Below are positions 20,670 to 22,772 of a stretch of 64,000 bases of DNA, piece after piece. The position numbers and the translations under genes were made by a program. The stretch's first letter is position 1. Each line of letters opens with the position of its first letter. The DNA is from Eoetvoesiella caeni. GTDB taxonomy: Bacteria; Pseudomonadota; Gammaproteobacteria; Burkholderiales; Burkholderiaceae_B. The stretch is taken from positions 124,001 through 188,000 of the forward strand of contig NZ_QNRQ01000007.1 in assembly GCF_003315175.1 (NCBI RefSeq). The letters are read 5' to 3'. The notes beneath the pieces were generated by a model. The model searched no databases. It was not told where the DNA came from and worked only from the letters and a program-made list of their open reading frames with translations.

Positions 20670-21137
20670 TTACTCGTCTGCGTCGGTGGTCAGCAGCCGA
20701 TGGATGGCGACAACGTCGGTTTCGGTGGCCAGGGCCTGCCGCAGCGCCGGGTTGGAAACCAGCTTGGCGATTTCGGCCAGCAGGTCCAGGTGCAGTTGGG
20801 TGGCTGTTTCGGGTACCAGCAGAAAAAACAGCAGGCTGGCCAGGCGCCCGTCGCTGGGGTCGAACCGTACCGGGTCGGCCAGGCGGATAAAAGCGGCACA
20901 AGGTTCTTTCAGGCCCTTGATGCGGCCATGGGGCACGGCAATGTGGTGCCCCAGCGCCGTCGAGCCAAGGCGTTCTCGTGCGATCAGGCTTTGGAAGACT
21001 GAAGTGCGTGCGACACCGTGGTGGTTTTCGAAGAGTAGACCGGCCTGTTCAAATGCCCGTTTTTTACTGGTGGCGGCCAGATCGAGCACAATGTTTTGCA
21101 GCGGCAAAATACGCGACATTAGGTTCATGGAATGCAT
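20670..21137 (-). CDS. ptsN: PTS EIIA-like nitrogen-regulatory protein
   Basis: A 155-residue EIIA-Ntr. The phospho-accepting His lies in TALGHHIAVPHGRIKGL (VPHG, near residue 70). It takes phosphate from NPr/HPr and regulates potassium uptake and other processes; it is not a sugar transporter. It is followed closely by hprK. Confidence 0.94.
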   Translation of the reverse strand: MHSMNLMSRILPLQNIVLDLAATSKKRAFEQAGLLFENHHGVARTSVFQSLIARERLGSTALGHHIAVPHGRIKGLKEPCAAFIRLADPVRFDPSDGRLASLLFFLLVPETATQLHLDLLAEIAKLVSNPALRQALATETDVVAIHRLLTTDADE

Positions 21138-21297: not shown

Positions 21298-21624
21298 TTA
21301 TTCGACGGGGATTTCCTGCCTTTTCACTGGTTCGTGAGCGTGGTTCTGAACTTTGCTTTTGTACTTTATGACCTGGCGGTCGATTTTGTCGGCTAGCAAG
21401 TCGATAGCTGCGTAGAGGTTCTCGTCGGTAGCTTCGCAATGAATATCTTTGCCGCGTAGCCGCATCGTGACTTCGGCCATGTGCTTGAGGCGTTCTATTG
21501 AGAGTATGACCTGTGTGTCTATGACATTATCGAAATGCCGCGCAACCCGCGCCATTTTGTTTTTGACATAGGCGTTTATTGCCGGGGTGACTTCCAGGTG
21601 ACGACCACTAATGCTCAGGTTCAT
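21298..21624 (-). CDS. hpf: Ribosome hibernation-promoting factor, short form
   Basis: A 108-residue HPF/YfiA-type protein. It opens with MNLSISGRHLEVTPAINAYVKNKM and carries the conserved RLKHMAEVTMRLRGKDIHCEAT region. The short length means there is no dimerisation domain of the long-HPF class. It binds the small ribosomal subunit in stationary phase. A good AGGAGA Shine-Dalgarno precedes the ATG. In many betaproteobacteria rpoN lies directly upstream; here there is a repeat-filled gap and then lptB. Confidence 0.94.
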   Translation of the reverse strand: MNLSISGRHLEVTPAINAYVKNKMARVARHFDNVIDTQVILSIERLKHMAEVTMRLRGKDIHCEATDENLYAAIDLLADKIDRQVIKYKSKVQNHAHEPVKRQEIPVE

Positions 21625-21773
21625 ATTGTGCTCTCCTATAAGTAGCTAGCTTGCGCAAAATGCGCGGTTCACGGGGTGGGTGGGTCTCCTTTCAAGTGGT
21701 GGCTGAAACTTCAGTGTAAAGCTTATGCAAACTAAAGCAAGGGGTTTCACTCGGGGTTTTTGCGGGTCCGGGG

Positions 21774-21807
21774 CAGCAAGCCGCGGTAGCGGCGCAGCGT
21801 GGGGGCC
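21774..21807 (+). repeat. 34-base direct repeat, copy 1
   Basis: These 34 bases are identical to 21935-21968, 161 bases further on, in the non-coding gap between lptB and hpf. The GC-rich unit contains CCGCGGTAGCGG. Confidence 0.85.
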
Positions 21808-21866
21808 CATTTTTGCCGCCGGGCCGCCCCAAGGCAAAAAGCGCCCCCTTGGGGGATGAGACCGGA

Positions 21867-21896
21867 CATAGGGCAGTCCCTGCGGACTGCCCTATG
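21867..21896. repeat. Perfect 13-base inverted repeat
   Basis: Arms 21867-21879 and 21884-21896 are exact reverse complements around a 4-base loop, so a very stable hairpin can form on either strand. It lies between the two 34-base repeats. Confidence 0.8.
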
Positions 21897-21910
21897 CCTG
21901 TCGAATCGGA

Positions 21911-21926
21911 GCGGCTTGCAAGCCGC
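21911..21926. repeat. 16-base perfect palindrome
   Basis: GCGGCTTGCAAGCCGC reads the same on both strands. It lies between the 13-base inverted repeat and the second 34-base repeat, and could be a protein-binding site or part of a REP-like element. Confidence 0.6.
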
Positions 21927-21934
21927 GACGTGGA

Positions 21935-21968
21935 CAGCAAGCCGCGGTAGCGGCGCAGCGTGGGGGCC
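21935..21968 (+). repeat. 34-base direct repeat, copy 2
   Basis: Second exact copy of the unit at 21774-21807; it ends 9 bases before the lptB stop. The whole 353-base gap (21625-21977) contains only these repeats and hairpins, with no gene-like reading frame. Confidence 0.85.
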
Positions 21969-21977
21969 TTTTTCCCT

Positions 21978-22772
21978 TTACATGCGGAAGTTCTTGCCCA
22001 GGTACACCTTGCGCACGGCTTCGTTGTCGATGATTTCGCTGGGGTGGCCGTTGGTCAGCACTTTGCCTTCGCTGATAATGTAGGCCCTGTCGCAGATGCC
22101 CAGGGTCTCGCGTACGTTGTGGTCGGTGATAAGCACGCCTATATTGCGGCTTTTCAGGAAATGCACAATGCGCTGGATTTCGATGACGGCAATGGGGTCC
22201 ACGCCGGCAAAAGGCTCGTCCAGCAGGATGAAGCGTGGATGCGTGGCCAGGGCTCGTGCAATTTCCACGCGCCTGCGCTCGCCGCCGGACAAGGATATTG
22301 CCGAGTTGCGGCGTATATGCCCGATTTGCAACTCATCCAGCAGGGTTTCCAGCTGCTCGCCTATTTGTTGCGACGACAGGGCCTTGCCGTCGTCGGCCAC
22401 CTGTAGCTCAAGCACCGCGCGAATGTTTTCCTCGACCGTCAGGCGGCGGAACACGGAGGCGTCCTGGGGCAGGTACGACAGGCCCATGCGGGCGCGCTTG
22501 TGCATGGGCATGCTGGTTATCGGCGTACCGTCGATTTCGATGCGGCCCGAGTCGGTGGGGACTATGCCCACTATCATGTAGAAACTGGTGGTCTTACCGG
22601 CGCCGTTGGGGCCCAGCAGGCCGACGACTTCGCCGCTGTCGACCGAGAGCGATACGTCATGGACCACTGTGCGCTTGCCGTAGGTCTTGCGTAGGCCCGT
22701 GGCGCGCAAGCTGCCATGTTCGGCGCTTGGAGCACGGTTCGAGCCGGCGTGCGGCGTTGCGGAAGAAAACAT
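21978..22772 (-). CDS. lptB: LPS export ABC transporter ATP-binding protein
   Basis: A 264-residue ABC ATPase. Walker [11 protein letters not shown], the signature [17 protein letters not shown] and Walker [14 protein letters not shown] are all intact, and the ATPase core starts near residue 24. It powers LPS extraction from the inner membrane with LptFG. The start at 22772 ([10 protein letters not shown]) is chosen because the frame further upstream runs into lptA; the first 20 residues are variable. It follows lptA by 40 bases. Confidence 0.95.

Follow-up and report, generated by a model that had tools for sequence, protein, structure and literature searches.

The coupling of rpoN, which encodes sigma-54, to hpf and ptsN is a common argument for joint action of the nitrogen-PTS, ribosome hibernation, and sigma-54. 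A 64,000-nucleotide stretch of the Eoetvoesiella caeni genome (hereafter the window) contains, in the same order, all members of the proteobacterial rpoN cluster kdsD-kdsC-lptC-lptA-lptB-rpoN-hpf-ptsN-hprK-rapZ except rpoN itself, raising the question of what became of this gene. An initial annotation of the window proposed loss or relocation of rpoN, and that PtsN must work outside its classic sigma-54 context if the gene is absent altogether. Published work has described the context of sigma-54 genes as "remarkably conserved throughout" (Francke et al. 2011, PMC3162934) and has proposed that an ancestral rpoN cluster was rearranged later (Comas et al. 2008, PMC2405797). Displacement of rpoN from lptB to leuA is not mentioned in the excerpt of Comas et al. 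2008 (PMC2405797) considered here, and our literature search found no report of rpoN relocation or of the repeats described below. The reading that we favor, and consider very probably correct, is that rpoN was displaced clade-wide from lptB to a site between leuA and bfd, that hpf-ptsN came under its own promoter, and that the repeats now found in the gap arrived later.

The lptB-hpf junction and the ancestral position of rpoN

In the window, lptB (LPS export ATPase; positions 21978-22772, minus strand; NCBIfam TIGR04406, 388 bits) and hpf (ribosome hibernation-promoting factor; 21298-21624, minus strand; TIGR00741, 103.5 bits) are separated by exactly 353 bases (21625-21977), and hpf is followed by ptsN (nitrogen EIIA; 20670-21137, minus strand), for which the top NCBIfam match (TIGR01419, E 2e-33) scored 115.2 bits, below the curated cut-off of 138.7. 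An NCBIfam scan identified the surrounding genes as lptC, lptA, lptB, hpf, ptsN, hprK, and rapZ, with kdsC and kdsD farther up; as the top matches of PtsN, KdsC, and KdsD score under the equivalog cut-offs of their models, these three names reflect best hit plus position. A tblastn search with 58 RpoN proteins (E ≤ 0.01) found no sigma-54 frame or remnant in the gap, and all 58 queries matched the junction of genome G043, which retains rpoN and served as the positive control. Both the spacing and the absence of rpoN from the gap were as initially annotated. The gap yielded no Rfam RNA family at E ≤ 1 and no sigma-54 promoter site with two or fewer mismatches, and sigma-54 promoter matches across the window were not above chance. 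No DNA similarity to plasmids was found.

The position of rpoN was surveyed in an order-wide sample of 90 evenly drawn genomes, 87 of which lie outside the host family and 83 of these 87 had a detectable lptB. In 77 of the 83, rpoN lies directly behind lptB; among the remainder, one genome has rpoN elsewhere and five have no sigma-54 match. Within the family, 61 genomes were sampled, lptB was found at threshold in 57, and 56 junctions were read (the one left out is that of G009, in which the rpoN matches are far from lptB). Only three of these 56 junctions retain rpoN (G012, G034, and G043), while 44 show lptB directly next to hpf with gaps of 98 to 353 bases, the window gap being the longest; hpf was not found in nine, one of which is interrupted by a contig end. 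Loci with no hpf detected beside lptB include L055/L083 (G036), L077 (G022), L071 (G056), L078 (G057), and L080 (G023), and ptsN directly follows lptB in G057 and G023.

The order lptB-rpoN-hpf-ptsN, which the initial annotation had taken as the usual one, thus holds as ancestral in the host order, and since rpoN is at lptB in 77/83 outgroup genomes and in 3/56 family junctions, displacement is a derived condition that extends to most of the family. The small number of family junctions with rpoN could also be read to mean that rpoN never occupied the lptB site in this family and that nothing departed; however, three family junctions do carry the gene there, as do 77 of the 83 genomes from other families, and because of both observations we regard its presence at lptB as ancestral and the contrary reading as highly improbable.

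Two sigma-54 genes and the new site of rpoN

Two sigma-54 genes were found elsewhere in the genome, rpoNa at C1:37508-38998 (L025:9009-10499) and rpoNb at C2:555257-556963 (L026:8758-10464), with the annotated start of rpoNb probably placed too early. Both are open frames with the AID (PF00309), core-binding CBD (PF04963), and DNA-binding DBD (PF04552) domains, both exceed the TIGR02395 cut-off, and the RpoN-box motif ARRTV.KYR is seen in the two translations as ARRTVSKYR and ARRTVAKYR. The genome also has seven Sigma54_activat matches, of which five are strong (loops GSFTGA, GAYTGA, GAFTGA, GAFTGS, and GAFTGA), and encodes HPr at C3:119648. About 2 kb separate rpoNa from the gene for an NtrC-family response regulator whose loop reads GSFTGA (L025:5374-6819, minus strand); this regulator may serve the second sigma-54 as a dedicated partner.

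The proposal that rpoN is absent altogether, and that PtsN acts here without any sigma-54, fails on the genome-wide search for RpoN and activators, which returned two intact sigma-54 genes, five strong activators, and HPr; total loss of rpoN was therefore rejected. The absence of rpoN from its usual site, together with the lack of any sigma-54 match in ten genomes, several of them small, among the 61 of the family, would fit such a loss, but given the two intact genes and five activators with loops of the GSFTGA, GAYTGA, GAFTGA, and GAFTGS types, we consider loss of sigma-54 control from this organism practically inconceivable. The initial annotation had also named an intact rpoN elsewhere in all relatives as evidence against its reading; the family comes close to this, with sigma-54 present in 51 of the 61 genomes.

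The relationships among the sigma-54 genes were examined in a tree of 58 RpoN proteins (38 of the 84 family sigma-54 matches plus 20 from other families), which is unrooted and contains two very long branches (G014 and G078), making its fine branching order unsure. One clade (support 100/99) combines 12 family copies, including rpoNa, with second copies from four other families, which identifies rpoNa, as judged from the tree, as an old second sigma-54 paralogue; sigma-54 regulation is intact because the genome also retains this older copy. The 22 displaced copies, including rpoNb, group with the G050 copy and the G043 lptB-site copy and adjoin the remaining lptB-site RpoN, and by this placement rpoNb appears as the orthologue of the rpoN found at lptB. 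Of the two options initially considered, relocation is thus supported and absence is not. Two sigma-54 copies have been described in R. solanacearum and many Burkholderiales, according to the excerpt consulted (PMC4371752). The window genome resembles these rpoN1/rpoN2 pairs (e.g., of Ralstonia solanacearum) in having two divergent sigma-54 genes, but differs from them in that neither copy is at lptB.

Across most of the family, rpoNb-type copies are located at leuA-rpoN-bfd-bfr-prfC. Among 22 displaced-type rpoN loci read, 20 adjoin leuA, mostly in exactly this arrangement, and the other two adjoin bfd/bfr; in genus g12 (G050 and G011), rpoN is instead behind recQ. In G043 and G050, bfd-bfr-prfC is present but the 9-10 kb read past bfd contains no rpoN and no leuA, an arrangement consistent with the site before rpoN arrival. 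In seven family genomes without sigma-54, leuA and prfC are still together with no rpoN between them, and bfd lies between them in six. Remnants of the rpoN start, 36-44 residues long, were detected by tblastn between leuA and bfd in two such genomes of genus g5 (L203:10432-11429 and L204:3253-4276; E 0.004 and 1e-5), and rpoN therefore decayed at its new site in those genomes. The sigma-54-less genomes G004, G006, and G046 retain hpf and ptsN at lptB.

Comparison of the junction among relatives, which had been proposed as a means of dating the change, establishes the displaced state in most of the family but is compatible with either one or two displacements. In the LptB tree, G043, with rpoN in place, joins genus g12, from which rpoN is gone at this site (86/80), and this grouping would require two displacements; in the RpoN tree, by contrast, the g12 copy is nearer the displaced clade (99/81) and apart from G043.

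A further reading is that the rpoN at lptB was replaced by one acquired from elsewhere that landed between leuA and bfd, so that the gene now found there is not the same gene moved. The divergence of rpoNb, which is about 34-45% identical to the compared lptB-site RpoN proteins, would fit such a replacement, as would the fact that no intermediate genome carrying both copies of the lptB-site type was seen. However, in the 58-protein tree the displaced copies, the G050 copy, and the G043 lptB-site copy are successive along one lineage, and their order roughly matches that of the genomes in the LptB tree, so we regard replacement as improbable. Under the favored displacement, the ancestor had rpoN between lptB and hpf, as seen in the outgroups; the gene was likely copied or moved and the old copy then lost; and in most family genera the orthologous rpoN now lies between leuA and bfd-bfr-prfC. 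Its absence beside lptB would then be explained by its residence at a new chromosomal site across most of the family.

Repeats in the gap

The two exact 34-base repeats, 13-base perfect hairpin, and 16-base palindrome that had been noted in the gap are all real. The 34-mer occurs at 21774-21807 and 21935-21968 (0 expected, 100 shuffles) and sits within a 42-base repeat with copies that are 93% alike; the hairpin arms are at 21867-21879 and 21884-21896, and the palindrome GCGGCTTGCAAGCCGC at 21911-21926 (self-match). On both strands, the repeat block folds better than shuffled sequences (z -3.8 and -3.3). A genome search resolved the block, on the plus strand, into one unit of an approximately 82-base dispersed intergenic repeat (21771-21855), the extra segment of a long variant of about 160 bases, which contains the hairpin and palindrome (21856-21931), and a second, partial unit (21932-21973), 4 bases short of the final base of the lptB stop codon. 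Elsewhere in the genome the long variant recurs at three loci, C2:201238-201555 (as two copies in tandem), C5:174647-174846, and C13:81187-81349.

The genome search with the gap repeat gave 121 matches at E ≤ 1, and matches within the fetched stretches were joined into 42 arrays, each 36 bases or longer, after two stray 13-base matches were dropped. Array positions were assigned with our own simple codon-usage gene caller, which missed the window hpf, so that array-to-gene distances are rough: 23 arrays lie between tandem, 13 between convergent, and six between divergent genes; a gene 3' end is within 50 bases in 24/42 and a 5' end in 8/42, and four overlap a predicted gene. The repeat family is present in seven of 15 relatives searched (E ≤ 1e-12), but not in G016, which belongs to the same genus. 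An RHS frame with a Tle1-type phospholipase domain (L026:229-4011, minus strand) lies near the array at C2:550958-551118. In the units of the array at L325:2528-3050, GTTTACC/GGTAAAC stands in place of the TTTTGCC/GGCAAAA of other units; both arms of a possible stem are thus altered together, hinting that folding of the repeat is kept.

Like REP/BIME elements and other dispersed intergenic repeats, the gap repeats are palindromic and scattered through the genome, lie mostly between genes and often close to gene 3' ends, and partly form tandem arrays; unlike REP/BIME elements, they have an approximately 82-base tandem unit and occur in a genome without the REP-associated Y1 transposase (PF01797; 0 matches in the genome, with controls matched in 5/14), and a REP/RAYT origin was therefore rejected. 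A search for Rho-independent terminators, defined as a GC-rich hairpin with a T run behind it, placed one minus-strand site in the repeat block (21856-21844), with 4 found versus 1.4 expected in the 1-kb stretch. The repeats, which would represent later insertions of a dispersed element whose most frequent position is at the 3' end of a gene, may provide a terminator or an mRNA 3' structure behind lptB, and probably do at most this.

The juxtaposition of repeats and missing gene had implied a tie between the two. The repeats occupy exactly the former position of rpoN, and 4 bases separate the second unit from the lptB stop codon, as might be expected of a scar or agent of rpoN excision; yet none of the ten relatives aligned, which include the same-genus genome and all lack rpoN at this junction, carries the repeat there, and the repeat forms 42 arrays genome-wide, of which the nearest to an rpoN gene is about 4 kb away. 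A role in excision is thus very unlikely, and because relatives without rpoN at the site are also without the repeat, we take the repeats to have arrived after rpoN departed and to have no connection with its departure.

A probable hpf promoter and leader after displacement

With rpoN at lptB, hpf-ptsN was presumably read through from rpoN. In the window, a putative sigma-70-type promoter for hpf, TTGCTT-N16-TACACT, lies at 21713-21740 on the minus strand and is the only exact match to TTG-N19-TANACT in the 64 kb. Within the 170 bases upstream of hpf covered by the test, this pattern is found in 38/44 displaced junctions (0.09 expected from shuffles), usually as TTGATT-N16-TACACT, versus 0/17 junctions with rpoN in place, these being the ones with hpf inside the fetched stretch among 23 canonical-type loci searched; the strict pattern is missing in six of the 44. 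As the pattern was picked after viewing the alignment of displaced junctions, the shuffle control overstates the surprise, though not the contrast with canonical junctions. Its conservation suggests that hpf-ptsN is now driven by this promoter, which, along with the missing rpoN, sets the window apart from the usual proteobacterial rpoN cluster.

Between promoter and hpf is a 5' leader (21632-21691, minus strand) in which two GGAG-type motifs (21685-21691 and 21632-21638) flank a GCGCA/TGCGC hairpin (21653-21665); it is kept in 31/44 displaced and 0/17 canonical junctions. The combination of promoter and leader (window 21632-21745, minus strand; hpf upstream regions L028-L075) was seen at displaced junctions only. 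No covariation was found in the leader hairpin among 24 sequences chosen from the 44, which neither supports nor refutes the hairpin because the stem hardly varies. A conserved uORF was rejected, as an ATG or GTG within 14 bases after the first GGAG occurs in 0/31 leader-bearing junctions. A tentative and rather unlikely extension is that hpf became an independent unit once rpoN had departed, preceded by a structured leader RNA in which two Shine-Dalgarno-like motifs flanking a hairpin could let ribosome availability or HPF control translation; if so, hpf would be under a leader control not found where it is read from rpoN.

For annotation, these data caution that rpoN missing at lptB does not mean rpoN missing from the genome. 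In the displaced clade, which is probably Alcaligenaceae-like, the link between rpoN and hpf-ptsN is broken, with rpoN beside leuA and bfd and hpf-ptsN behind a putative promoter of its own. Some members went on to lose rpoN entirely, three of them still keeping hpf and ptsN at lptB. The meaning of the ancestral coupling between rpoN and hpf-ptsN thereby becomes testable through comparison of sister genera.
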